A stretch of 38,870 nucleotides of DNA from an uncultured Actinomycetes bacterium (lineage in GTDB: Bacteria; Actinomycetota; Actinomycetes; Nanopelagicales; Nanopelagicaceae). Below, piece after piece: positions 1,035-13,452 of the stretch. The stretch is taken from NCBI GenBank assembly GCA_903822425.1, contig CAIJOY010000048.1, positions 1 through 38,870 of the forward strand, given 5' to 3'. The notes under the pieces were generated by a model. That model made no database searches. It worked only from the letters and a program-made list of their open reading frames with translations, and was not told the origin of the DNA. Position numbers and translations under genes: made by a program. The first letter of the stretch is position 1. Each line of letters opens with the position of its first letter.

Positions 1035-1766
1035 TTAGTGATCGGCTGATTCTAAAATAATCCGATAAGTAAGATTGGCTTTAGCAAAACCAGCAATTGA
1101 ATCTACGCCAGCTCTTGCAGCAGGGTTAAATACAATAGATACAGAGTTATCGTTTGGACTGAGTTTCCAGTAGAGATCCGGATTAGCATAAGGCGGGGTA
1201 TCAGTTGCCCAAGTATCAGGAAGTGGAGTTGCTGTAGGCACCAGTGGACTCGTTGGTAGAACAGTAATTACTGAGTCAGCGATAGTTCCTGTTGAATCCT
1301 TTGTTAAGAGTAGGTACATGTTGGCCATGTTCCCGTTTTCATCGACGCTACTTCCGGCGCCAAAGCGACTGAAGTAAAATCTCACACTATCAATTGGGAC
1401 ACCAGCGGCATCGACTGAGATATCTTGTTTCACACCATTTTGATCCAAAACTTTCAAAATAAAATCTTTTCCAGAGCATTGATCAGAAATACCAGTTAAC
1501 TGCACTTCATTGAGGGTGAATTTGCCCAATAGGTCTTGCGAATAAAAACTCTCGAAAGGAAGCATCGTAATCTCTGAGTCGCAATGTGTTACTGCCACAA
1601 CGCCGTGCCCAAGTTCGGCAGAATTACTATTTGATCCATTAATAGTGATTAATGCGCCAACGGCAAGACCCAGCGATGCAATTGCCGCTGAAATAGCCAA
1701 ACCCAAATAAACTTTAGGGAAACGCTTTTCCTCAATTTCAATGGGTTCGATTTCTATCAGACTCAT
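1035..1766 (-). CDS. exported surface protein, SipW-substrate-like (paralogue A)
   Basis: A 243-aa protein with a charged N-terminus, a hydrophobic segment at about residues 19-39, then a Gly/Asn-rich stretch and ELGHG at 51-55. Cysteines at 62 (in CDSEI) and 97 (in CSGK) are spaced as in the paralogues at 6546-7325 and 7863-8552, whose motif is EFGQG. All three end in a short Thr-rich strand (here LTYRIILES). The leader followed by a G-x-G-type motif resembles SipW-processed TasA/camelysin precursors in layout, not in clear homology. I chose the ATG at 1766 because it overlaps the stop of a small upstream ORF as ATGA; an in-frame GTG at 1796 would add ten residues but has no ribosome site. 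It is the last gene of the surface run. Function unrecognised: probably a secreted or membrane-held structural subunit. Confidence 0.75.
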   Translation of the reverse strand: MSLIEIEPIEIEEKRFPKVYLGLAISAAIASLGLAVGALITINGSNSNSAELGHGVVAVTHCDSEITMLPFESFYSQDLLGKFTLNEVQLTGISDQCSGKDFILKVLDQNGVKQDISVDAAGVPIDSVRFYFSRFGAGSSVDENGNMANMYLLLTKDSTGTIADSVITVLPTSPLVPTATPLPDTWATDTPPYANPDLYWKLSPNDNSVSIVFNPAARAGVDSIAGFAKANLTYRIILESADH

Positions 1767-1828
1767 TGGCCACCCACGATAATGAGGCCCTGGCACAGGG
1801 CGGTCACGGCATACGCTAAGGAGAACAC
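1763..1828 (-). CDS. possible 21-codon leader ORF coupled to the next gene
   Basis: A GTG at 1828 is preceded by a strong purine-rich ribosome site (GAGGAGAGG) at seven bases spacing, and the frame runs 21 codons to a TGA that overlaps the ATG of the exported protein at 1766 (ATGA). The peptide is hydrophobic (FSLAYAVTALCQGLIIVGG). The gene downstream has only a weak site of its own, so its translation may depend on this ORF. Too short for certainty; it could equally be a spurious frame. Confidence 0.35.
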   Translation of the reverse strand: MFSLAYAVTALCQGLIIVGGQ

Positions 1829-1846
1829 AAGAAAACCTCTCCTCAG
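1816..1846 (-). promoter_or_regulatory. hairpin covering the leader ribosome site
   Basis: Positions 1816-1824 and 1838-1846 form a 9-bp stem (one G-U pair in the minus-strand RNA) with a 13-base loop. One arm contains the GAGGAGA ribosome site of the leader ORF at 1763-1828, so the fold could limit access. There is no T-run after it in the minus direction, which argues against a terminator. Regulatory role is inference. Confidence 0.35.
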
Positions 1847-1921
1847 TTAGGGGATGACTGCGAGGGGTAAATTCTAGCGTTTTGAAGAAAAAACTGTCTA
1901 TTGCATGCCTTGGCTAAGCCG

Positions 1922-2281
1922 TTAAAGACCGAATGCCCCCAAGAGCATGCCGATGAAGGGAAAAACCATCACCAGTGAGCCTCGGACATTCTTGATCGGA
2001 ACGCGCTTAAGCCCTTCCATCGTTTGAATATCCACCGTATCGCCATTGACGGTATTAACAAGTGCTAGAACTGGGTCGATGCCCGGGGTATCGGTCATAA
2101 CAATAATTTTTTCACCAGGAGTTAATTGAGCATGGTGCCAGTAAATGGCCACTGATGAACTCGCTGATCCAATGGCGTTGCGAAGGCCAGATTTTGGATG
2201 ATCTACACGCAACCCTAAACTAAATAAAATGACAACAAGCAGGAGCGTAAAGACGATGCCGCGCTTAGTGTTATCGCTCAT
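1922..2281 (-). CDS. signal-peptidase-like membrane protein without catalytic residues
   Basis: A 119-aa protein with membrane segments at about 9-24 and 104-119. The middle and end align by eye with the catalytic-domain tail of the signal peptidase encoded upstream: LTPGEKIIVMTDTPGIDPV against INPGDIILTTPTKNLTPKV, and IKNVRGSLVMVFPFIGMLL against IPDITGVVFFVIPVIGKFL. The Ser of the GSM box and the HRI and GDAN boxes are absent. It could be an inactive companion of the peptidase, a substrate-holding factor, or a relic. The ATG at 2281 has a very good ribosome site (AAAGGAGG at 2291-2298, nine bases away), so it is clearly translated. It is sixth in the minus-strand run. Reality is sure; the relationship to S26 peptidases is a by-eye inference. 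Confidence 0.7.
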   Translation of the reverse strand: MSDNTKRGIVFTLLLVVILFSLGLRVDHPKSGLRNAIGSASSSVAIYWHHAQLTPGEKIIVMTDTPGIDPVLALVNTVNGDTVDIQTMEGLKRVPIKNVRGSLVMVFPFIGMLLGAFGL

Positions 2282-2369
2282 GACGTGCTCCCTCCTTTTA
2301 ATCTAGCCACCCGTGAGAATACCTTCACGGAGTCGAAAATGCTCCTAGTAAGCGAAATTTCTCTTCATT

Positions 2370-3074
2370 TTATTTCTTTTGGCTCTTTTTAGGGAGTGAT
2401 TTCGAGCTTTCTGCGCTGCTGGGCTTCTTTGTCTTGGCAGTTATCGAGGCCAGCCACTGATCTATATCAATGGATTCACTCTCAGTTGAAGGCGTTCGAA
2501 CCTCCTTTTTCGCACTCTGTGCACTCTTGGTCAGTAACTTCTGAGCGATAACCACTTGTGCCGATAGAACTTTTTGAATGTGGGCCAGTGAGGCGGCGAT
2601 CGCCATTTTTTGTTTTTGCGCTGCTTCTTGTACTGGAGCGGCTCCGCCTTGAGAGTCAACAAAAGTAGTCGCAGGTTTTGGTTCAATAATTAATTTCTTG
2701 CTACCTTTGCGAGCGCTATTAGGTTTAGGTGCACTCTGGATATTAAAAAGCCATTTCACAATTTCTATGGGGTAGTTGAGCACTCTTACAAAAATATTGG
2801 CAGATGAGGCAAGAGCTGACTGCTCATGGTGTGGCTCGTTGGCTTCTTCATCGATTTCTGCGCTGGACATACCAAACATCATTCGATTAGTTCGCGAATC
2901 AGGGCGTCCAACTCCACGCCATGTTGCAACTTCAATCACAGTTCCTTGGTTCATTTTACCGATTACCAATTTTTGCCCATCAGGTAGATCAATAACCAAT
3001 GCTGAATCAGAGATTGGCAACGGTACGCGAGAGATGATTGGCTTTACAGGAACCTCGATCTTTTTCGATGCCAT
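2370..3074 (-). CDS. Lys/Ala-rich soluble protein of unknown function
   Basis: A 234-aa protein without signal peptide. The first ~70 residues form a compact beta-rich-looking segment (SALVIDLPDGQKLVIGKM, then VIEVATWRG and a RTNRMMFGMS tail). A hydrophobic patch around 96-112 (IFVRVLNYPIEIVKWLF) may be a membrane-associated helix. The remainder is Ala/Lys/Ser-rich and ends in a very basic tail (LPKKSQKK), typical of a disordered region or a DNA, RNA or membrane-surface contact. I do not recognise the family. It lies 27 bases after the collagen-like gene and before the signal-peptidase-like gene, so it probably belongs to the same operon; an inner-face component of the export or assembly machinery is possible but unproven. 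Confidence 0.7.
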   Translation of the reverse strand: MASKKIEVPVKPIISRVPLPISDSALVIDLPDGQKLVIGKMNQGTVIEVATWRGVGRPDSRTNRMMFGMSSAEIDEEANEPHHEQSALASSANIFVRVLNYPIEIVKWLFNIQSAPKPNSARKGSKKLIIEPKPATTFVDSQGGAAPVQEAAQKQKMAIAASLAHIQKVLSAQVVIAQKLLTKSAQSAKKEVRTPSTESESIDIDQWLASITAKTKKPSSAESSKSLPKKSQKK

Positions 3075-3101
3075 GTTATTCGGCCACTCTCTTCCGGTCG
3101 G

Positions 3102-4028
3102 TCATAACAGTTGAAATCCAAGTATGGAATCCAGAATACGAAGATCCATCACTTCTAGAAGAGGGTCGCACACAAGTGTCACCACTAAGCCTGACTCCCC
3201 ATACTTCAAAGCATACCCAGGTCTAGCCAAATAGAGGTCACGCCCACCTGGGTCTGGCAGGGCAAGAACCGTACATGTGAATGGCAGGTTTGTGCCTAAT
3301 GTATCCGTGGTCGATAAAGTCACATCGAGTCGATGACCCGAGCAATCACTACTGAGATCGCCCACTTTGATTCCATCCAAAATAAAGCGATGGTTGACCG
3401 TGTCAAAATGACTCAACATTCCTAAATTGATTGCACTGTCGCAGGAAGCAATGTCGGCGGTTCCTGTTCCATGACTCATTAAGGCCGAACCATTGCACGC
3501 ATAGGAGATACCGCCATCTCCTCCAATAAATTTGGTTCCCCCTTCAGGGCAATGTTCATCCCCTGGCAAAACTGGCACTACCGCTACCGGTGCTCCCGGC
3601 GGCCCAGCAGCGCCTTGTGTACCCCTGCTTCCTGGCACACCAGGAGTGCCCGGCGTGCCCGGCGTGCCCGGCGTGCCAGCACTACCAGCTGTTCCACTTG
3701 CACCAGCAGCGCCGGCGTCCCCATTTGCACCAGCAACACCAGGTGGGCCACCTGGTCCGATCGGACCGGGCGCTCCATCGATTCCATCCTTTCCGGCTTG
3801 GCCATTGAGTCCTACAAAACCGCTCCTGCCTCCCACGCCACTGACAGTGGGTTTGCCTTGGCGATCAATCATGATTGCCAATACTTGGTTGAGTTTTGTA
3901 TCTGTTCCGACTTGGTATCCCAAGAAAAGATTTTCAAATTGGCTGGTGGTACTTGAGGCAGCACTGGGATAAGAAGCTAAGCCTCGAGAAAATATTAGAA
4001 TCAGGAGAAAGAAGGTTAACTTTTTCAT
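3102..4028 (-). CDS. secreted collagen-like protein with C-terminal two-Cys module
   Basis: A 308-aa protein with a Sec-type signal (KK then a hydrophobic run, residues 2-19). An N-terminal segment is followed by about 27 unbroken Gly-X-Y triplets (G67 to P147), including a run of GTP triplets. Then comes a CPEGG...YACNG segment (residues 160-180) of the kind seen after collagen repeats in other bacteria (DUF7151-like), and a C-terminal domain starting at the CDSAI motif (C196) with CSGH (C229). That last module resembles the cysteine region of the exported paralogues in this locus (CDSEI...CSGK at 1035-1766). A trimeric stalk presenting a head domain outside the cell is the expected structure. 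Its start overlaps the stop of the upstream membrane protein as ATGA. Confidence 0.85.
   Translation of the reverse strand: MKKLTFFLLILIFSRGLASYPSAASSTTSQFENLFLGYQVGTDTKLNQVLAIMIDRQGKPTVSGVGGRSGFVGLNGQAGKDGIDGAPGPIGPGGPPGVAGANGDAGAAGASGTAGSAGTPGTPGTPGTPGVPGSRGTQGAAGPPGAPVAVVPVLPGDEHCPEGGTKFIGGDGGISYACNGSALMSHGTGTADIASCDSAINLGMLSHFDTVNHRFILDGIKVGDLSSDCSGHRLDVTLSTTDTLGTNLPFTCTVLALPDPGGRDLYLARPGYALKYGESGLVVTLVCDPLLEVMDLRILDSILGFQLL
3642..3677. repeat. 9-bp tandem repeat in the collagen region
   Basis: Three perfect head-to-tail copies of CGGCGTGCC occupy 3651-3677, with a degenerate fourth copy at 3642-3650. On the minus strand they encode consecutive Gly-Thr-Pro triplets. The unit length keeps the reading frame, so gain or loss of copies would change stalk length without breaking the gene. 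Confidence 0.8.
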
Positions 4029-5605
4029 TGATTGATACTTTCACCATTGACTTTGATTCGCTGAGAAGCAAGATGAAAGCTACTCAGTATCACATGCAGT
4101 AATGGCAGCAGAAAACCTAAAGTCATGAAAATCTCAGATCGCTGTGTTATTTGAAATGGCAGCTGATCGACATACGAGAAGAGGTAAAAACTAACGAGAG
4201 TAATCGCACCGGCTTCTACTAAAACGTTTCGGCGCCATTGAGAGAATAAATGCAAGTTAACAGGCCGGGAATCGAGCATGAGGGATCCGAAAAGTACTAG
4301 AAAGAGTAATCCGCTAACAATTGCCACTGCCCAACTCTCTGCCCATACAAAAGCTGTGAGCATGGCCGAGGATGCGACTATGGCTACGAAGTTAGGTGAC
4401 ATGAGGTTTTTGAAGTGATAATTCTCAAGAGTGAGCGAATCTGCTTTCTGACCTCTGGCAATACTTGAATCCAATTGCTGACGGGCAAAAATCTTCACTC
4501 CGAAGAAGGCTCCCATGGCAATTGAGAGTCTGATCATAGTTTCTCTATTACTAGATATCCCGATCGATAAACTCTGGGTCAAGACTTGCACTGCAAAGAA
4601 ATACACTCCGATGATCACTGAAATCACAACCAACAGTAAGAAATCACCATCTGTAGAATTCTTCCGCTGCCTGGCAAAAGGAAAATCAAGACGAGCAGAA
4701 GAATAGAGCAAGTTGCCATAGACGCTGGCAAATACCCACATCAAAGCTAATGAAGCCAGCACCATTACTGCGCGCAAACTCATCACCTCGCCGATGAGAA
4801 CTTGTCCAATGGCAAAGCCCAACGTCGCGAAGACCCCACTGAAGGCATCAAAGAGTCCAATGCTCGATAGTGCAAAAAGAAAAAATATAGGGATATTGGG
4901 CAGATTTCCATGGGTGAGGTAGCCGGCATCTACCCCAGCAAATAGGGCGATTGCTGGCAGGAGTGACCACAGCAACGGCGAGATTTTATGGACAAAAGTT
5001 TCATCCAAGCGAAGCAGGAATTTAAAGACCGAAGCTCGATCCGACACTAGTGCGCCATGGCGTAAGAGATAGATGGCGTAGGCAAAACGTGGCAGCCGCT
5101 TATCAAACATCAGAGTCCCGTGTTCAATAAGACTTTTCTGCCGCCACATATCCAACTGTGAATATTTAACACCACGTATGACAGAAAGGCTGACTATGAT
5201 GAAAATTAACACAAGAATCACCAGAGCTAAATCTCGAGGAAGATGAGAGATGGAATAGTGGGTTAAATTCACGACCGAAACTGTGGCTGCGACCGAACCA
5301 GACGTTGCACCATTTTCAAAAATGTAAACGGTGTAATCACCCAGCGGTAGGTCACTGGCAAGCACCGCAGAATAAACCAAAAATCCTTGTGCATTAATTG
5401 AGCTCTTCTGAAAGCTCACAGGCGGCGAGCCTTGGCGCACCATTTTTATCTCCCAAGTGGATGTTGAAGCAACCCCTCCAAGAACGATGTTTTGTTCAAT
5501 TCCCCGCTCCCACGTCAACAGTGGATGATCCTCAGCCCATGCAAAAGGTGTGGAAGAGGTAAAGAAGAAAGTGACTACAAGGCCAGCAAAAATCTTCCTA
5601 ATCAT
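4025..5605 (-). CDS. polytopic membrane protein with exported N-terminal domain
   Basis: A 526-aa protein. It has a signal peptide ending near AWA (residue 24), then an exported domain of ~90 residues with beta-strand character (LPLGDYTVYIFENG, ending TVSVVNLTHY). A membrane segment at about 126-146 is followed by a cytoplasmic stretch of ~65 residues, then roughly nine further hydrophobic segments to the end. I recognise no family. It overlaps the end of the signal peptidase gene by eight bases and the collagen-like gene by four, so it is translationally coupled to both and is likely a membrane component of the same system, for example a scaffold, channel or assembly factor. No ATPase or transporter motif is visible. 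Confidence 0.75.
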   Translation of the reverse strand: MIRKIFAGLVVTFFFTSSTPFAWAEDHPLLTWERGIEQNIVLGGVASTSTWEIKMVRQGSPPVSFQKSSINAQGFLVYSAVLASDLPLGDYTVYIFENGATSGSVAATVSVVNLTHYSISHLPRDLALVILVLIFIIVSLSVIRGVKYSQLDMWRQKSLIEHGTLMFDKRLPRFAYAIYLLRHGALVSDRASVFKFLLRLDETFVHKISPLLWSLLPAIALFAGVDAGYLTHGNLPNIPIFFLFALSSIGLFDAFSGVFATLGFAIGQVLIGEVMSLRAVMVLASLALMWVFASVYGNLLYSSARLDFPFARQRKNSTDGDFLLLVVISVIIGVYFFAVQVLTQSLSIGISSNRETMIRLSIAMGAFFGVKIFARQQLDSSIARGQKADSLTLENYHFKNLMSPNFVAIVASSAMLTAFVWAESWAVAIVSGLLFLVLFGSLMLDSRPVNLHLFSQWRRNVLVEAGAITLVSFYLFSYVDQLPFQITQRSEIFMTLGFLLPLLHVILSSFHLASQRIKVNGESINQ

Positions 5606-6440
5606 TTTTTAAAGCATCAATAACCATCCATAGACCAAAAATCAATGGGACGGTCACCAACAGAGCGCGCGGAGTGAGAAATTTGCCAATCACGGGAATA
5701 ACAAAGAAGACCACACCGGTGATATCTGGGATCTTTGGATGCTGCACATCCGGTGATGGATTGGCATCTCCTTTGACGATAAAACCAGTCTCTGCATCTC
5801 CGCCAATAATGCGGTGAGAGAAAACACCTACGGCGCTTCCATCAAATCTGCGTCCAACGTAGGCAACAATTGTGCCAACTTTTGGTGTTAAATTTTTAGT
5901 GGGCGTAGTCAAGATAATGTCGCCAGGATTGATGGCCGGGACCATCGAACCCGTTAAGACCACGCGCGCTTTGACGGTTCCAGAAAAGGAGAAGACTGAA
6001 AAGGTAAGCAAGACTGTGGCGACAAGGTAGCCAGACCATCTAAAAAAAGTAGAAAGGCGCGTCGAAACAGCGCGTGCTCCAGTTGCAATACGCTCAACAG
6101 GGGCTTGGACAAACAGACTTGCCTTCGTCTCTAAAATCTTCTCACCGGCTAGAAGATAGCTGTGTTCACCCGTTGAATCCGAGACGGTGATCAGCACATT
6201 GGAATCTGCCACTAAACCAGGATTCTCCACCCACATCGCAGTGGCACCAAGCAAGAAAGGTTTCGCAGATGCGATTGGCTCGAGCTCTGCATCCATCGCT
6301 GCCTCCCATTCTTCGCCCAGGAACTTGCGGTAATTAGGCCGTGAAACTTTCGGTGACGTTTTGGCAAAGTACTTCTGAGCCTTCACCCAAAGATCAAGGA
6401 AATACCTTTTCAAGTTTAGAGCACAATAGGTACAAAACAA
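5598..6440 (-). CDS. ER/SipW-type signal peptidase I (family S26B)
   Basis: A 280-aa peptidase that would cleave exported precursors at the membrane outer face. After a cytoplasmic N-terminal region (~130 residues) and a membrane helix at about 136-154 come the family boxes: VLTGSMVPAI with nucleophile S165, PGDIILT, FSHRII with H209, and VKGDAN with D225, then the IPVIGKFL segment and a C-terminal membrane helix at about 257-275. Histidine in place of the usual bacterial lysine base marks the archaeal/ER/SipW subtype, known in Bacillus to process TasA and TapA. Neighbouring genes encode several short exported proteins that are its natural candidate substrates. The listed start is a TTG at 6440, right after a terminator; later in-frame starts (for example TTG at 6413 or GTG at 6386) are also possible. 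Confidence 0.9.
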   Translation of the reverse strand: MFCTYCALNLKRYFLDLWVKAQKYFAKTSPKVSRPNYRKFLGEEWEAAMDAELEPIASAKPFLLGATAMWVENPGLVADSNVLITVSDSTGEHSYLLAGEKILETKASLFVQAPVERIATGARAVSTRLSTFFRWSGYLVATVLLTFSVFSFSGTVKARVVLTGSMVPAINPGDIILTTPTKNLTPKVGTIVAYVGRRFDGSAVGVFSHRIIGGDAETGFIVKGDANPSPDVQHPKIPDITGVVFFVIPVIGKFLTPRALLVTVPLIFGLWMVIDALKND

Positions 6441-6478
6441 GAACGACCCCGCCCTAACTTTCTAGGGCGGAGCCGTTC
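6433..6478 (-). terminator. rho-independent terminator between subunit and peptidase genes
   Basis: Positions 6441-6456 and 6463-6478 form a 16-bp stem with a six-base loop. In the minus-strand RNA all pairs hold (two are G-U), whereas on the plus strand the same positions are A-C mismatches, so selection has acted on the minus RNA. A T-rich tract (TTGTTTTGT) follows in the minus direction. It sits 67 bases after the stop of the exported protein at 6546-7325 and directly at the start of the signal peptidase gene, so it should lower expression of the downstream operon relative to the subunit. Confidence 0.85.
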
Positions 6479-6545
6479 TTCACACTTCTAGCCTTGAGGG
6501 GCTTCTTACTTGTAGTACACGTTTTCTATGAGGTCCTAGGACTTC

Positions 6546-7325
6546 TTAGAGAGCAGTACTTGAATACACACTTGGCAGTGCATCGATAGATTCAACGGTG
6601 ATCTTGCCAACAGCTGAAGCTGGTGGGGCGTAGAAGGCTTTTACGCCAGCATTTGCAGTGCCGTTAGAACCAATTGAGCATGTGATCTTTCCGCCAGAGA
6701 CACCAGCACTCATGGAGCAAGAAATTCCACCTGCATCAGCACTGGCAGAGTTCTCTGTGCTTACAGTGTCTACAACAGATGTGCCCGATGTTGGAATTTG
6801 GATCGCAAATCCTTGATTGTACTTTGCGACAGTTGATACGCCAGCAGAGCCGCCGAAAGCAGTCGCACCAGCACTGCCACCGTAGTTCCAACCCAAGTAA
6901 AGCGGGTTCAAAGCCGAACCATTATAGGCGTAATCAAGGGCGGTACCAGTTGCCCCAGATGCTGTATAGGCGTGGATCAAAAAGAACATATTTCCACAGT
7001 GAGATGAGACTCCATCCGAAGACACAGCAGCGGCTGTATCGATGCCGTCAAGAGTAAGGGATGTGAAAGCAAAGTTAGCATCCGATGAGTTAATAAAGGT
7101 CGCACCTGGAGTCAGTGTGATATCTGAATCACAAGCAGTAGTTGCTGCAACGCCTTGACCGAATTCAACAGAGCTTCCGCCGTTAAGAGAGATGCTCGCT
7201 GCAAGAGTTGAGCCCAAGCCCATCATGCCAGCAAGTAAACCAATACCAATAACAAATTTAATCTTCTTCTTCTTCGAGGTGCGCTCAGATGGCTCGTATG
7301 CTCCACCTAGGTTTAAAATCTCCAT
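6546..7325 (-). CDS. exported surface protein, SipW-substrate-like (paralogue B, likely major subunit)
   Basis: A 259-aa protein. A lysine cluster (18-23) precedes a hydrophobic segment (about 24-43), then SISLNGGSSVEFGQG with the EFGQG motif at 54-58, CDSDI with C65 and a second cysteine at 110. The mature part is small-residue rich (Gly/Ala/Ser/Thr) and ends with a GKITVES strand matched in paralogue C (GRTTVET). This composition fits an extracellular beta-rich fibre or coat subunit. The ATG at 7325 has an excellent ribosome site (GAGGAGG at 7333-7339, seven bases away), a long leader region, and a strong terminator behind it, all of which suggest an abundant single-gene message. It lies immediately before the signal peptidase. 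Family unrecognised; the substrate role is inference. Confidence 0.8.
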   Translation of the reverse strand: MEILNLGGAYEPSERTSKKKKIKFVIGIGLLAGMMGLGSTLAASISLNGGSSVEFGQGVAATTACDSDITLTPGATFINSSDANFAFTSLTLDGIDTAAAVSSDGVSSHCGNMFFLIHAYTASGATGTALDYAYNGSALNPLYLGWNYGGSAGATAFGGSAGVSTVAKYNQGFAIQIPTSGTSVVDTVSTENSASADAGGISCSMSAGVSGGKITCSIGSNGTANAGVKAFYAPPASAVGKITVESIDALPSVYSSTAL

Positions 7326-7837
7326 CTGTTTTCCTCCTCAAGGGGAAATGCTCGACGTTCCATTCACAGGTTGTGAACTTCTCAACTCGGGTGAACCTTG
7401 GGGGCTACCCCGTCAGGCTCAGACCTGTGGTTGATGTCGAGGGTTAGTCAAGCATCTGCATCGCGCGTTGTGCAACACATTCCCACTCTTGGCCCACGCT
7501 CAAATCTGTCAGAGGGTGAGAAACCGTTCGGGTTTTACGGTCATTTTGGGCGTATTTTGCGAGTTTTAACCAATAAGGAAGCCTTTCACCAGGGGCATCC
7601 CCAGCCCTTGGATGCCTAGACCATCTGTAGTTCTGAGGCCAGAGCTGGTTGTCACAGAGAGAGCAAAGACGTTAGCGCAATAAATCAAGGAAATGAATGA
7701 GTGGATGTAAGACACCTTGGCCCGGAGCCGAAATTCTCATTGCTCTGCTTGAAGAATTCATTCATCATTAAAGAATGTGCACATAAATTTTAGAGAGCTG
7801 TTTAAATTGCGCGGAATGTGAAAAAAATGAAATCACA
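7326..7837 (-). other. long structured leader region upstream of paralogue B
   Basis: This 500-base stretch has no supportable gene. It holds several inverted repeats: 7363-7377 (6-bp stem, loop of three), 7401-7411 (GGGG-CTA-CCCC), 7414-7427 (CAGG/CCTG) and 7594-7616 (GGCATCC/GGATGCC). The first three lie within 105 bases of the start codon of the gene at 7325 and could form a structured 5' UTR. I compared them by memory with the c-di-GMP, c-di-AMP, TPP, FMN, cobalamin and SAM aptamers and found no convincing match. I could not place a clear promoter. Confidence 0.45.
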
Positions 7838-7860
7838 CAAAAAACCCTTATTTTATAAGG
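7838..7860 (-). terminator. rho-independent terminator after paralogue C
   Basis: CCTTAT at 7846-7851 and ATAAGG at 7855-7860 form a perfect 6-bp stem with a three-base loop. In the minus direction it is followed by G and a run of six T (complement of the A-run 7839-7844). It begins two bases after the TAA of the gene at 7863-8552. Confidence 0.7.
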
Positions 7861-7862
7861 TT

Positions 7863-8552
7863 TTATCGAGTTGGATTATTTACAGTTTCAACTGTTGTAC
7901 GGCCAATTAATTGCCCATCTAAATTGACGCTCGTAGCTGTGGGATCCAAATAGAAAGTGACATCTGCATTTGTCGCAGAGAGATCAGTACCGTCATAGAT
8001 TGAAGTGCCAGAAACATTTAATGAAACGGCAGCAGACATTGCACTCGATACTGGCGAGCCATCACCAGTTAAATACGTTAAAGCAAGGGCTCCGGCATCG
8101 CTGGTGCTTACAGGTGCATCAACATTAGGAAGAGCAATCTGAAGGACGTGCGCATCCACCGTCGGTCCTATGGAGAGCTCAGCACCAGCAGTATCAATCA
8201 AGCGCACTCGCAATTTCTTGCCATGGCAGGCCATCAAATCAAGGTTGGAAATGGTCACACCCCTCACTCTAAAAAATCCAGCAGAAGTATCTGTAGGTGT
8301 GGGTTGGGAGTGCCACTCTTCACCGATTGCAGCAAAGACGGTGGGATCGCACGCAACGGCTTGCTGTGAACCTTGGCCAAACTCGAGAGCGCCACTTCCA
8401 ACGGTCACACTTGCTGCAAATGTTGAGAGTAAGAACGGAACGACGCCAGCAAGTGCTGCGCCAAAAATAATCTTATTTCGGTGACGTCGTTGTCCGCCGC
8501 CAAAGCCAGAGTTGACCCGCCCGCTTAAGGGGGATTGCAAACCCTGCGGCAT
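7863..8552 (-). CDS. exported surface protein, SipW-substrate-like (paralogue C)
   Basis: A 229-aa protein with a basic N-terminus (QRRHRNK, 21-27), a hydrophobic segment at about 28-46, then SVTVGSGALEFGQG with EFGQG at 57-61, C68 (ACDP) and C109 (CHGKK). The C-terminus ends in GRTTVET plus a short tail, as in paralogue B. The same order of leader, EFGQG, first Cys, second Cys and terminal strand in all three proteins is good evidence for one family. The ATG at 8552 follows GGAG at five bases; a TTG lies one codon upstream. A three-codon ORF (ATG GAG TCT TGA) overlaps the start as TGATG, which may be chance. It has its own terminator, so it appears to be expressed separately from paralogue B. 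Role unknown, probably extracellular structural. Confidence 0.8.
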   Translation of the reverse strand: MPQGLQSPLSGRVNSGFGGGQRRHRNKIIFGAALAGVVPFLLSTFAASVTVGSGALEFGQGSQQAVACDPTVFAAIGEEWHSQPTPTDTSAGFFRVRGVTISNLDLMACHGKKLRVRLIDTAGAELSIGPTVDAHVLQIALPNVDAPVSTSDAGALALTYLTGDGSPVSSAMSAAVSLNVSGTSIYDGTDLSATNADVTFYLDPTATSVNLDGQLIGRTTVETVNNPTR

Positions 8553-8667
8553 CAAGACTCCATTCTCAGGTGAGGGAGTCCTCCAGAATGCACAGAGAAC
8601 TCGCTCGTTACTTTACCTTTGAGCGTGCGAGAAACCCGTGATTGACGCTGCGCGGAAGTGAGTTTTT

Positions 8668-9528
8668 CTAGCGGTTAAGGGAGATACCGTTTTTGATGAG
8701 ATCCATACCAAGACCCAAAGCTCGTAAATAAATCGTGCGTGAATTCATCGCACTTGCTTGGCCGCAGTGGACCGGATCCAAGGATGGAGAAGTCAGAGCG
8801 ATAAGGGTAAGGCTGAGATAGAGGCCGCCAAGGGGCCCGCGAGCGCCCACAATTCGTGTACCTCCCCCACTATTTAATATCGCAACAACTTGATCTGTTG
8901 TACCAGAAATCAGTAGATCGGAGGTGAGATCACCTTCGACAAGTTGTACTTCATTGAAGAATGAATCACGAGAATTTTTTGCATAGACATCAAAAAGTAA
9001 ATTGTTTCCTCGCAAGCAAGCCAGTAGATAGCGCGACCCCGATACGTTGATTGGGGGCAGATAACTAAATAATGCTCGTGGGTCCACTGGTAACACGGTC
9101 GGGATATTTAGTTGCAGCGTTTGAATGCTTTCAGGACTTGCGGTGGCTGATCCACCAACGGTCATCGAGTCAGGTGAATCCACCATCGAATTGGGATCGC
9201 CAGGTGAAGCAGAATTAGCAGATGGTGCAGGACTCGGTGATGGTGCAGAAGGGTCGATGGGAATAATCAAATCTGCGGGAGCATCCGATGCTGACTCAGA
9301 TGGAATGGGCGATGCAGATTGACTTGGTTGTCCAGCAACTTCCTCCATCGGCGGGGGCGTCGCATTTTCATCGGCTATAACGGGCGCGACAATCGTAAGC
9401 ACAATTCCGACCAGTGCTAATGCAAGGAGGCGATAGAGCAGAATCCGTGGCTCTTGGTTTCTCATTACCTCGGCGGCAGCTCGAGCGCGCAGCAGAGGTG
9501 TGCGGCGAGAACCACGGCCAATTTCCAC
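8668..9528 (-). CDS. membrane-anchored protein with Pro/Ser linker and surface domain
   Basis: A 286-aa protein. A basic N-terminus and one hydrophobic segment (about 30-52) precede a Pro/Ser/Ala/Asp-rich linker (about 53-135). A C-terminal domain (~140 residues) follows with YLLACLRGNNLLFDVYA, an early cysteine after which the pattern C-x-x-G-x-x-L resembles the second-cysteine region of the neighbouring exported proteins, and a later CGQ. The topology suggests a protein tethered to the membrane with its domain held away through a wall-spanning linker. The listed start is a GTG at 9528; an ATG at 9465 gives a more usual short N-terminus (MRNQEPRILLYRLL) but its GAGG is only two bases away. 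It is the first gene of the minus-strand surface run and diverges from the response regulator. Unrecognised family. Confidence 0.7.
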   Translation of the reverse strand: MEIGRGSRRTPLLRARAAAEVMRNQEPRILLYRLLALALVGIVLTIVAPVIADENATPPPMEEVAGQPSQSASPIPSESASDAPADLIIPIDPSAPSPSPAPSANSASPGDPNSMVDSPDSMTVGGSATASPESIQTLQLNIPTVLPVDPRALFSYLPPINVSGSRYLLACLRGNNLLFDVYAKNSRDSFFNEVQLVEGDLTSDLLISGTTDQVVAILNSGGGTRIVGARGPLGGLYLSLTLIALTSPSLDPVHCGQASAMNSRTIYLRALGLGMDLIKNGISLNR

Positions 9529-9663: not shown

Positions 9664-10311
9664 ATGTCTTCGGAATTTCGCACTCGTGTCCTTGTCGCCG
9701 AAGATGAGGAATTTACTCTCAATCTTTTGCGCGAGATTTTGAGCGATGCCAATTTTGAGGTTAAGGCCGTTAACTCTGTGGCCGATGCGATTGTTGCCGT
9801 AGATAGTTTCGATCCCCATGCCGTTATTAGCGATCTAAATTTTGGAATCAATGCGCCAAGCGGGGCAGATCTGCTCAACTTCCTTGAGCAAGAGCATCCT
9901 TGGATTGGCAAGGTGATTCTGACATCACACGCCTCCCCCGCTCTGGCCCTGCCACGCGGAACCTCGCTACCAGCAAATGTTACTTACCTTGTTAAATCTG
10001 AATTGCAGACGATTGCAAGTTTGAGTGAAGCCGTACGGGAATCTATCGCCAAAGTTGATGCCACCCCTGAGCGTCCGGTCTTGGAAAATACTCGAATCGT
10101 AATCAGCCATACACAAGGTGAGATTTTGCGATTAATGGCAGAAGGATTTACAAATGCAGCCATCGCTGTTCGTCGGGAAACATCCCTGCGAGCTACCGAA
10201 ACTTTGGTTCAGCGCACATTTGCAACTTTAGGACTTAAAAGTGATGAGGAATACAACCCACGCATTTTGGCTGTGCGCATGTGGCAAGAAGACAAGATCG
10301 TGATCCGATGA
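9664..10311 (+). CDS. LuxR-type response regulator
   Basis: A 215-aa two-component response regulator. The receiver domain (about 6-125) has the acidic pair E13/D14/E15 in VLVAEDEE, phospho-acceptor D57 in HAVISDLNFG, a T in VILTSHA and the conserved Lys in YLVKSE. The C-terminal ~65 residues form a LuxR/FixJ helix-turn-helix (SHTQGEILRLMAEGFTNAAIA, positions about 148-168, then a TETLVQRTFATLGL recognition part). It would bind DNA after phosphorylation by the kinase two genes downstream. GGGAG four bases before the ATG is the ribosome site. The stop overlaps the next gene as ATGA. It is divergent from the surface locus, which makes that locus a candidate target, but no operator is demonstrated. 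Confidence 0.9.
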   Translation: MSSEFRTRVLVAEDEEFTLNLLREILSDANFEVKAVNSVADAIVAVDSFDPHAVISDLNFGINAPSGADLLNFLEQEHPWIGKVILTSHASPALALPRGTSLPANVTYLVKSELQTIASLSEAVRESIAKVDATPERPVLENTRIVISHTQGEILRLMAEGFTNAAIAVRRETSLRATETLVQRTFATLGLKSDEEYNPRILAVRMWQEDKIVIR

Positions 10312-11714
10312 AGCATCACTTTTCCGCCTTTCGAACGGCCGTTACTGGCCGATGGGCTATCGCCTTTCCATCTTTTTTAATTATTGCGCCTCTAAGTATT
10401 GGATTTTCTCTCGAACGTGAAAGTGCAATCCAACTTGGGAACTTGTCTACCTGCGTACTTGTCACCGCAGCAGGAGAATTTGTTGGTTACCTGTATCTCT
10501 TCATTGCTCAAGCAGTTTTGCTCAGCGAACGTAAAGAAAAATTGCAAAAGTTAAGTACGTGCGTGTTCGTTTGGTTAAGTACCGGATTGGTACGCGGCCT
10601 TGCTGCTGCCCTTTACGCACATTTTGTCTTGAATCTGCCTATACATTTTCTCTTGCGTGTGGCAAATTCCATGCTCTTCACAGGCATTTCCCTTACTTTG
10701 GCTGCTTTCTATTTCGGATCGGTTTCTGCCAAAAAAATACAATCTGAAGCCCTCTGGAATTTGAGTGATTTGCTTGCCATTGATTCTACAAACCTTTCGA
10801 CCGATCAAATAAGTGCAAAAAAGCAAGCGATTTCATCATTTCAAACTTTTCTCGCACCAAAAGTAAAACAGCTCCAAGAATTAACTGGCGAACTCAGCAA
10901 ATTTGCCACTTCAGAAGAGTTTTCTAACGGGCTGCGTACTCTGAGAGTTCAAGCCGAAAGTCTCAACGAAAAAATGAACGAGGAATTGACGGCAATGGAA
11001 CGCGCTGTTGATATTTCTGCGATTGATTCCATGAAGCCAATAACCCATTCATCATTTATCAAGGGCCTGCTTCCTGAAACAATATCAGTGCGCACCGCTT
11101 TTGTCGCACTTTTTTTTGGCGGCATAGTGGGCCAGCTGCCACGAAACGGTTTCATGGGTGCACTTGCCGCAATAATTTCAAGTCTTCTCATCACTACTTT
11201 CCTGCAGATTGCCTGTGTTGTGGTTCCACTACTTAAGGGCGTCCCGAAGTGGATGAGCACTCCGATTGTTTATGCCGGAGTCTTTGGGATTCAATACTTC
11301 TATTCATCTCACTTATCTCTCTTTGGCCTGAATTTAGCCACACCATTTATGCCTTGGTACTCAGCTACTAAGTGTGTCTTTGCTGTCTATCTAGCCTCTG
11401 TTGTATCGGGATTGCTCACCGAGCAAAACGAAGCATTTTTAACTTTAGGTCTTGCCACTGCTAAAAACCGCATTCAGATCAATGAGTTGAGTAACTCGAC
11501 AGATGACTTTGATCGAGTGAGTTTGGCAGCAAATTTTGGCAACTTGCAAGGCAAAATTTCTGGAGTAATCATCGGTCTCAATATTCTCAAAGAGGGTGCT
11601 AGCGGTAATGGCTCCAAACGTCCTTCTCCAGACTTGATGGCTAATACCAATACACTTCTCTCTGAAGCAATTTGGGAAATTCAACATCTTGGCGTTAAAG
11701 AATTATCTAACTAA
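10308..11714 (+). CDS. 8-TM membrane protein, degenerate kinase-like paralogue
   Basis: About 468 residues from the ATG at 10308, chosen because it overlaps the response regulator stop (ATGA); an upstream in-frame start would add nine residues. Layout: four membrane segments, a cytoplasmic linker (about 145-255) with coiled-coil character, four more membrane segments, and a C-terminal helical tail. The histidine kinase next door has the same layout, and details agree: GQLPRNGFMGALAAI here, GHIAREGFLHGCIGQ there. The tail (LAANFGNLQGKISGVIIGLNIL) lines up with the kinase dimerisation helix (YLHAEVQSQLLACKLLLL) but lacks its histidine, and no ATPase domain follows. It is probably a sensory partner or pseudokinase subunit. 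Paralogy is a by-eye judgement. Confidence 0.75.
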   Translation: MKHHFSAFRTAVTGRWAIAFPSFLIIAPLSIGFSLERESAIQLGNLSTCVLVTAAGEFVGYLYLFIAQAVLLSERKEKLQKLSTCVFVWLSTGLVRGLAAALYAHFVLNLPIHFLLRVANSMLFTGISLTLAAFYFGSVSAKKIQSEALWNLSDLLAIDSTNLSTDQISAKKQAISSFQTFLAPKVKQLQELTGELSKFATSEEFSNGLRTLRVQAESLNEKMNEELTAMERAVDISAIDSMKPITHSSFIKGLLPETISVRTAFVALFFGGIVGQLPRNGFMGALAAIISSLLITTFLQIACVVVPLLKGVPKWMSTPIVYAGVFGIQYFYSSHLSLFGLNLATPFMPWYSATKCVFAVYLASVVSGLLTEQNEAFLTLGLATAKNRIQINELSNSTDDFDRVSLAANFGNLQGKISGVIIGLNILKEGASGNGSKRPSPDLMANTNTLLSEAIWEIQHLGVKELSN

Positions 11715-13452
11715 GGAGAGCGGTCAGATTCGTAGCATCAAAGTGCTAAGTAAAGAGCGAATCGAGATAGATGCGATTCTCGCTCTCATTCCCGTCCGCA
11801 TCATTACCTGGAAGGCTTACTGGGCGCTTGCGCCTTTTTCCGTCCTTAGCGTTTGCGTTTTTGTCCAACAGGAATTCACAACAAAATCTGCATTTTTATC
11901 TTGGTTAGCAATTGGATTTCTCTCCCATGCCAGCATGGCACCTTTTGTCATCTACGCCCATGGAAAATTTGGCCGTCGCACTCATTTCATACTCTCTGCA
12001 TGCATGGGTGCTGCACGTGGCGCGTCAATTGGATTGCTAGCGCCAATTTTATTAGTCCAGGATCCCATCTCACTGATAAGTCGTACTTTTAACTCTTCGC
12101 TAACCGTTTTCTATGCGTTAATTATCACGGGAATCATTTTTTCGGTATGGGCTGGGTTCGAACGAGACTTGAGAACTCTACTCTCTGATGCCATAAATGA
12201 TAGAAAAATAGAGCCTAGTCTTACATCGCTATCGCCTACTGGGCCACAGCATGATTCCAACATACAAGAACTCTTAAGCAAATTGAGCTTCTCGTTATCG
12301 CAAGCTAAAGAGGAGGGCGGCTCGGTTTATACGCTCACAGAGCAAGCCAACGCCATCGATAAACTCATCAAAGATCACATTCGCCCTCATAGTGCAAAAC
12401 GCTGGCGCGAGAGTGAATTGATTTGGCCCAAGATTCAAATACAAAATGTTTTATATCGCTCCCTGGTAAGAACTCCGGCACCCGTCATCTCAGTCCTCAT
12501 TCTCATGCTTCCATTAAGCCTGACTGGACATATAGCGCGTGAGGGATTTTTACATGGGTGTATCGGACAAGTGCTTGGGTTTACTCTCACAATCGCGATG
12601 TTGTTACTATCCCGATTAGTTACAAGGCGATTTTCACAAACGGTAGCAACTAGCAATCTTCTCTTCATGGTTTTCTTTATTTTTCTCCAAGCACCCATTC
12701 TCGTCGCTTTAGGTTGGATGTGGCCCACCACTAATGCATATTCTTCCGTTAGTACGGTGCAAGTGTCATACGCAACAATGCTCACTTTTATAGCCTTAAT
12801 CGGAATTGCCGCAATAACTTTAACCGTTCGTTCAACTCGTAATGACGCACTCAATTTATTACGTGATTCAATCTCAACGCAGGCAATGGAGAGGATGATC
12901 AGTGGCAGTGTGGCATCTACATCCAAATCTGACTACGCCCAATATCTTCATGCTGAGGTGCAATCTCAGCTTCTGGCCTGCAAATTGCTTTTACTCAAGG
13001 CTGCAGAGTCAGACTTTCAACTTTTTTCACCGGAAGTAACACAGAAAGTTGTTAAACGTATAGAACTTCTCAATACTCCATTTGAAAGACGGCCGATACG
13101 AATTCCGGCAGAGCGATTGAAGGAGATGGCAGCAACCTGGAAGGGGTTAGCAAGAATTCACTTTGATTTTCCTACCGAGTTTGAGAAGATCTCTAGCAAT
13201 GGTGAAGTAATTTCACAACTTATCGAAGAATCAATCGTGAATGCGATTCGTCACGGTAAAGCGAAAAACATCCGCGTAACGGCAACTATTGAATCCGGTA
13301 CATGTTTTATGAAAATTCAAGATGACGGAAAGTTCAAATCGACCAAGAGTCAGGGGCTTGGGTCCACGCTCTTTGAAGTTTTTGCTCCCGACTGGAAACT
13401 CACTACAAATGAGATTGGAACTCTTGCGACGCTCAGCGCGAAGTTCTATTGA
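11689..13452 (+). CDS. membrane sensor histidine kinase
   Basis: About 587 residues from the TTG at 11689. Two blocks of four membrane segments are separated by a cytoplasmic linker, followed by a HisKA_3-like dimerisation helix with the probable phospho-acceptor H421 in QYLHAEVQSQLL, and a HATPase domain: N box EESIVNAIRHG (N518), G1 box DDG (545-547) and a GLGS G2 box. It should phosphorylate the LuxR-type regulator of the same operon. The start is uncertain. The TTG has no good ribosome site, while an ATT at 11728 lies nine bases after a strong AGGAG (11714-11718) that begins at the stop of the preceding gene. The 3' end overlaps the convergent FKBP gene by seven bases. Confidence 0.85.
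   Translation: MALKNYLTKESGQIRSIKVLSKERIEIDAILALIPVRIITWKAYWALAPFSVLSVCVFVQQEFTTKSAFLSWLAIGFLSHASMAPFVIYAHGKFGRRTHFILSACMGAARGASIGLLAPILLVQDPISLISRTFNSSLTVFYALIITGIIFSVWAGFERDLRTLLSDAINDRKIEPSLTSLSPTGPQHDSNIQELLSKLSFSLSQAKEEGGSVYTLTEQANAIDKLIKDHIRPHSAKRWRESELIWPKIQIQNVLYRSLVRTPAPVISVLILMLPLSLTGHIAREGFLHGCIGQVLGFTLTIAMLLLSRLVTRRFSQTVATSNLLFMVFFIFLQAPILVALGWMWPTTNAYSSVSTVQVSYATMLTFIALIGIAAITLTVRSTRNDALNLLRDSISTQAMERMISGSVASTSKSDYAQYLHAEVQSQLLACKLLLLKAAESDFQLFSPEVTQKVVKRIELLNTPFERRPIRIPAERLKEMAATWKGLARIHFDFPTEFEKISSNGEVISQLIEESIVNAIRHGKAKNIRVTATIESGTCFMKIQDDGKFKSTKSQGLGSTLFEVFAPDWKLTTNEIGTLATLSAKFY

Follow-up and report, generated by a model that had tools for sequence, protein, structure and literature searches.

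A nine-gene cluster of freshwater Nanopelagicaceae that combines an S26B signal peptidase with a new exported paired-cysteine module

Bacteria of the acI group (Nanopelagicaceae) are abundant in fresh water and have tiny genomes, and to our knowledge little is known of how their surfaces deal with phages, grazers and particles. Here, we describe nine minus-strand genes, I-H-G-F-E-D-C-B-A, on contig CAIJOY010000048.1 of the Nanopelagicaceae assembly GCA_903822425.1 (1.43 Mb, 48 contigs, 98% complete); the whole stretch analysed, 38,870 nt, is referred to as the window. The cluster encodes an S26B-type signal peptidase (F) among short exported proteins that share a module with two cysteines, and it is very probably a dedicated export system for this new surface module. 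No paper describing the locus in Nanopelagicales was found in the open-access literature searched. The features of the locus are the following:

1035..1796, minus strand: gene A, single-module subunit (likely start 1766)
1922..2281, minus strand: gene B, small membrane protein of predicted S26 fold without catalytic His or Asp
2370..3074, minus strand: gene C, no transmembrane (TM) segment by hydropathy; conserved N-terminal ~60 residues (LVIDLPDGQKLVIGKM..EVATWRG.GRPDSR)
3102..4028, minus strand: gene D, collagen-like stalk (PF01391, 8.9e-12) and a copy of the module
4025..5605, minus strand: gene E, leader, exported N-terminal beta domain and polytopic membrane part
5598..6296, minus strand: gene F, S26B signal peptidase
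6439..6480, minus strand: intrinsic terminator between G and F, a stem of about 19 bp followed by a T run
6546..7325, minus strand: gene G, single-module subunit with a strong Shine-Dalgarno sequence
7326..7862, minus strand: H-G intergenic leader
7863..8555, minus strand: gene H, core single-module subunit
8668..9528, minus strand: gene I, exported protein with a leader, a Pro/Ser-rich linker and a C-terminal two-Cys domain (likely start 9465)

The peptidase and its linkage to the module genes

F is assigned to the S26B peptidases by TIGR02228 (signal peptidase I, archaeal/SipW type; 54.3 bits, cut-off 51.85), by profile matches to SEC11A and SEC11C (SEC11A at 8.4e-9) and by alignment, where S165, H209 and D225 (280-residue numbering) are invariant in 11 orthologues, including a 31% one. 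The Ser-His-Asp signal peptidase proposed in an earlier reading made from the DNA alone (the sequence-only reading) is thereby upheld, and the collagen-like, membrane-tethered and polytopic proteins listed there are likewise found at their places in the sequence. The Bacillus SipW equivalog NF046067 gives only 21.7 bits against its threshold of 190. F resembles archaeal and endoplasmic reticulum SEC11 (7p2p, 7p2q) in profile and catalytic residues but differs in carrying an extra conserved domain ahead of its first TM segment; in a distant acI genus (L050:990-1952) this N-terminal part is much longer. The true start is probably the ATG at 6296 rather than the TTG at 6440, since it is preceded by GGGAGG and the orthologues begin there. 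Because a separate canonical type I signal peptidase (SPase I) is also found in the genome (G000:C36), F is additional to the housekeeping enzyme.

The linkage of F to the module was examined in a sample of genomes; the counts given here ignore shared ancestry and gaps in metagenome-assembled genomes (MAGs). The sample comprised 201 genomes of the order, in which an F orthologue was called at >130 bits, about 390 genomes of the phylum, and GTDB matches, of which those bearing organism titles are actinobacterial MAGs, several of them titled Candidatus Nanopelagicaceae or Planktophila (freshwater acI group). Four MAG records bearing acI clusters (L055, L058, L061 and L064) are titled "Bifidobacterium breve" or "Streptomyces griseus", which is clearly wrong.

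Gene order is kept in near genomes. The arrangement I-H-(1-3 modules)-F-E-D-C-B(-A) spans the acI genera of Nanopelagicaceae, i.e., in distant genomes H and F are separated by one to three module genes, and the terminal A is often absent. F was present in all 17 GTDB loci extending at least 4 kb past H, at a distance of 0.7-2.8 kb from it; most of the GTDB loci in which F was not seen stop too early to judge. At the level of the order, an F orthologue was found in 29 of the 201 genomes, all 29 of which also have modules of the G/H/A type, more than expected by chance (one-sided Fisher test, 5e-28, uncorrected for phylogeny), and H was seen only in genomes with F.

Outside acI, compact module relatives of 130-155 residues, often in tandem, were found in seven genomes of other Actinomycetota families, and a profile built from these outside sequences only matches H of the window at 8e-8. 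An S26B-type peptidase lies within about 1.5 kb of a compact member in each of the seven, several of them with an intervening exported protein, which argues that the association of peptidase and module is not a quirk of one lineage. This intervening protein has a similar leader (L153:8637-9488, L155:8695-9507, L156:10307-10960, L158:6949-7626, L160:326-1081) and contains what may be a DNRLRE-type domain.

These observations bear on one alternative, namely that F works in general secretion, with the modules as mere neighbours. Such an arrangement would explain why dispersed modules are found far from F and why eight module-bearing genomes have no F, but it is hard to reconcile with the 17/17 linkage, the 29/29 co-occurrence, the recurrence of the linkage in other families of the phylum and the separate canonical SPase I, and we regard it as highly improbable. 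The claim of the sequence-only reading that a surface-protein system with its own S26B peptidase lies here is supported; the fibre or coat proposed there remains an inference.

The paired-cysteine module

The three short exported proteins have one leader TM segment each, followed by a common motif and a pair of cysteines: ELGHG at 61 and Cys 72/107 (35 apart) in A, EFGQG at 54 and Cys 65/110 (45 apart) in G, which also has Cys 203/216, and EFGQG at 58 and Cys 69/110 (41 apart) in H. The motif can be written E[FL]G[QH]G. The three are true paralogues: searched against the genome that encodes them, G matches A at 3.4e-9 and H at 7.8e-4. The leader, the EFGQG/ELGHG motif and the cysteine spacing of 35-45 residues described earlier from the letters are borne out. 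The "Thr-rich last strand" of that description is only loosely right; the actual signature is [KRT][IT]T[VI]E[ST], from which A deviates. Of the exported proteins at the locus, H is conserved best (82-85% in near genomes, 57-67% in far ones); G is the closest of the locus subunits to the dispersed proteins described below.

The module profile was built from 86 cluster members, and a wider collection holds 195 distinct members. Three residues are invariant across the 86, i.e., G62, C69 and C110 in H numbering, the last Gly of EFGQG and both cysteines. The family has in common a leader, a cleavage site of the TLA/A type, a conserved mature N-terminal stretch, x-I-x-I-N-x-G-x-x-V-E-F-G-Q-G, and the near-invariant Cys pair; a loose AxA-like cleavage pattern is present in 176 of the 195 members. 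Conservation peaks at residues 41-70 of H, which comprise the end of the leader and the mature N-terminus (2.8-2.9 bits, compared with 1.2-2.2). AlphaFold2 models were made of H and B as monomers. In that of H, residues 70-225 are predicted to form a beta-sandwich, with a predicted local distance difference test score (pLDDT) mostly near or above 90, and residues 39-62 fall below 50. A segment that is strongly conserved yet has no place in the monomer model resembles a donor strand. The best Foldseek match of the model (E 0.08) and the VIA Z score of 6 to antibody V domains are common background, and rows for FimA, the type 1 pilus and Pyrodictium cannulae (E 0.2-0.4) were not used as evidence.

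Searches of Pfam, NCBIfam (86 members) and PDB sequences returned chance-level rows only, and no characterised unrelated family was found to fit the subunits; rows for viral fusion glycoproteins (best E 0.003), which span no more than a short stretch, were dropped. The comparison with TasA deserves separate mention. TasA is cut by SipW and polymerizes via its freed N-terminal strand (PMC9674648), and as in the Bacillus tapA-sipW-tasA operon, a dedicated S26B peptidase is encoded beside short exported subunits with a leader followed by F-x-x-G. A, G and H, which are encoded with an S26B peptidase and have fibre-type exported neighbours, could on these grounds belong to a diverged TasA/camelysin system lying beyond the reach of profiles. 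PF12389 (TasA/camelysin) matched none of the 86 members at E<=1 and nothing in the own genome while the B. subtilis control was positive, for which reason the proteins are not filed in that family. A PDB-sequence profile search to E 10 returned no TasA chain, and the paired cysteines and the terminal strand signature differ. Membership of the same family as TasA is thus very unlikely, in agreement with the sequence-only reading, where the subunits were called not recognizable as TasA. The fold comparison speaks neither for nor against a TasA jelly roll: H is modelled as a beta-sandwich without a significant Foldseek match, and TasA is not among the rows.

The module is also used as a building block. 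Fifty-eight of the 195 members have a C-terminal extension of more than 90 residues, and apart from D these are 57 larger, dispersed proteins of which the module forms the N-terminal part. Pfam matches on the extensions comprise Lcl_C-like domains (20, those seen in full scoring below the curated cut-off), laminin-G/ConA (6), RCC1 (3), sortilin/BNR (3) and EPTP (2), as well as BspA leucine-rich repeats, IPT/TIG, C-type lectin and Gly-rich domains. In some genomes the module members number 13 or more. In D, collagen-like residues at about 60-150 are followed by the paired-Cys module at 179-253; a module profile built without D finds D of the window (2.6e-10) and 13 of the 18 sequences in the D family. 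D shares Gly-X-Y repeats with the collagen-like adhesins Lcl, SclA and SclB, and weak Lcl_C-type domains occur in many of the module fusions; unlike these adhesins, D lies far below the NCBIfam cut-offs for Lcl, SclA and SclB and ends in the new module.

The proposal of a new subunit family therefore holds in that no known family matches, but it extends beyond those three subunits, the module often being the N-terminal part of larger dispersed proteins. The module at the end of D, the multidomain members, the predicted S26 fold of B and the place of I in the cluster had all been missed by the sequence-only reading. That reading named homologues without a nearby S26B peptidase as grounds for its refutation; these do occur among the dispersed members (8 of 37 module-bearing genomes have no F), but the core subunit H was never found without F.

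The same leaders allow a different reading, in which they remain as stable membrane anchors and the module, locked by its disulphide, acts as a spacer on which lectins and propellers are raised through the wall; F would then trim or shed these proteins under a neighbouring regulator rather than build a polymer. Long conserved n-regions (MEILxF, LQSPLSGR), a single N-terminal TM segment in every member examined and no C-terminal anchor suit this arrangement, as do the persistence of module proteins in F-less genomes and a conservation peak that takes in the end of the h-region and the cleavage site. TLA/A-type sites are nevertheless present in most members, the EFGQG stretch is conserved past cleavage, the single-module subunits have no cargo to display, and B and E resemble assembly factors. 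We therefore consider such tethering unlikely.

Putative partner proteins and a proposed model for assembly

B is a protein of 119 residues. Its profile alignment with F is confined to the C-terminal end (E 7e-5 to 5e-4), and the first Foldseek matches of its model are human SEC11C (7p2q, E 1.3e-3) and SEC11A (3.5e-3), with VIA Z scores of 9.1 and 8.6 over 116 residues, followed by many LexA-family chains and streptococcal SipA (4n31, Z 7.6). The mean pLDDT is 74, so the fold is a prediction. Small Tudor-like barrels also reach Z 8-9 over about 50 residues, i.e., the barrel alone is not decisive, and the assignment to the S26 fold relies on the full-length SEC11 match together with the profile match and the locus context. 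Beyond S39 the B alignment contains neither a conserved His or Asp nor a Lys at a suitable position, and S39 itself is Thr in L055 and L061; B should therefore be inactive and is probably a dead (pseudo) signal peptidase. While SEC11 is its best fold match, B lacks the His and Asp of that enzyme.

A similar protein is known from Streptococcus pyogenes, where SipA has a signal-peptidase fold without catalytic residues and is essential for pilus assembly (PMC4049620). B shares the predicted fold and the loss of catalytic residues and lies in a probable surface-structure locus, but is much smaller, keeps Gly-Ser at the Ser site and is accompanied by an active S26B peptidase. No sortase and no LPXTG-anchor or pilin family was found by Pfam or NCBIfam among the nine genes, unlike at a sortase pilus locus of the SipA type.

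C and B form a single protein, with B as its rear part, in a distant acI genus (L050:7156-7959), a hint that the two work together; a test of C as a further S26 relative (hhalign) was negative. E has seven residues invariant in 18 orthologues (W32, E33, D253, R278, R459, E464 and H504) and no match in Pfam, NCBIfam or PDB, with no relative of known function. Distant E-like polytopic proteins of 549-570 residues adjoin giant proteins of 2000-2400 residues in acI genomes (L090:6113-7783, L091:6996-8666, L092:7361-9010, L094:7243-8955), and large surface proteins may have a family of such partners that includes E. I, which matches no Pfam family, is directly upstream of H in nearly all of 37 loci.

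Our preferred reading, at a probability of about 0.5, is that the cluster encodes a Sec-exported modular surface-display system, probably forming a thin fibre or a linked coat. F would cut the precursors of the display proteins as well as those of G, H and A, freeing the mature N-terminus, whose strand would be donated to the next module, each module presumably being held by a disulphide; polymerization by strand donation has chances close to, if not slightly below, even. The chain would consist of single-module subunits, joined by multidomain members that carry lectins and propellers outwards, with the collagen-like D as a stalk that has the same module at its end. Fresh N-termini would be bound but not cut by B, together with C and E, and passed into assembly, as proposed for SipA.

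The strong terminator behind G would keep the subunits in excess over the machinery. All seven near orthologue loci retain its hairpin (-17 to -34 kcal/mol), while the sequence has changed. A major product of this kind, together with many module proteins per genome (13 or more in several) and subunit-type gene dosage, would also suit a lateral coat or S-layer-like array, where cleaved modules pack sideways via surface contacts and the wall, with multidomain decorations and no strand exchange. For such packing one would expect conservation over a whole sandwich face rather than at the mature N-terminus, and a dead S26-fold partner points to a system that handles N-terminal peptides; a lateral array is thus quite unlikely.

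By analogy, the system would work most like tapA-sipW-tasA with a SipA-like helper. It differs from the Bacillus operon in having subunits with a near-invariant Cys pair and no TasA/camelysin profile match, a second, dead S26-fold protein, the polytopic E, a collagen-like member and many module-lectin and module-propeller fusions. The Sulfolobus thread filament (Saci_0406) is composed of Sec-exported beta subunits that signal peptidase I cleaves and that connect through N-terminal donor strands (PMC9715654). With this and other donor-strand filaments there is no sequence match or significant fold match, and here the peptidase is encoded in the same locus.

Several points weigh against the display-polymer model. 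The counts of co-occurrence of module and F are uncorrected for phylogeny. An F orthologue is missing from eight of the 37 module-bearing genomes, including a closed one; F is thus not needed by every module protein, some of which are presumably cut by ordinary SPase I. The low pLDDT at the mature N-terminus of H may reflect only alignment quality or a flexible linker, and because the model has no significant fold match, an incomplete sandwich is not demonstrated. The C-terminal cargo of multidomain members fits a chain only if it points outwards, and filaments, cleavage and disulphides are in this case deduced from genes and models.

A more far-reaching and still doubtful proposal is that an undescribed class of Gram-positive filament exists in several Actinomycetota lineages, in which a beta-module freed by an S26B peptidase and passed on by a dead one would serve both as the chain and as the N-terminal module by which interchangeable lectins and propellers dock. 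For further tests, the results provide a named set of genes and a signature of the module, along with a list of its fusions to lectins and propellers. They also suggest that the pairing of an active with an inactive signal peptidase may be a recurring way to assemble surface polymers, in which case streptococcal SipA would not stand alone.

A possible control region and neighbouring genes

In an alignment of seven loci, the H-G leader contains a conserved GTAAWACCCG (window 7527-7538) and a TTGACT-like stretch before G; the element, followed by that stretch, lies likewise upstream of G in L033-L036, L055 and L061. The motif is possibly an operator for the neighbouring regulator. As a regulon signature it gave three exact genome matches, the same as a control pattern, and no Rfam match was found for a structured RNA in the gap. 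Divergent from the cluster lies a block that adjoins it in many orthologous loci and probably has a regulatory function:

9664..13452, plus strand: LuxR-type response regulator (9664-10311) and membrane proteins (10281-11714 and 11689-13452), the last with a weak HATPase (kinase ATPase) match

In one sublineage the cluster is adjoined, on one side or the other, by a pair of membrane proteins that has no counterpart in the window genome or most near relatives (L045:9104-10437, L068:16595-17781, L074:6746-7995, L081:11136-12394, L060:5476-6736, L086:7822-9102). One protein, of 162-192 residues, contains "GWMYADLLLALMVIFL" and has a weak MotB_plug/ZorB match, and its partner has 232-258 residues; the pair bears a faint resemblance to small ion-driven stators.

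The cluster is patchy in its distribution (29 of 201 genomes), and the versions in G057 (genus g2) and G157 (g16) are as close to that of the window as are those from the same genus (g1), which hints at transfer between genera. In L059 and L095 a Gly-rich/cadherin-like/fn3 surface protein lies inside the cluster. Another surface protein, with Ig/PKD-like repeats, enters from the window edge (67-957) convergent to A, and its relatives occupy the same place in other loci.

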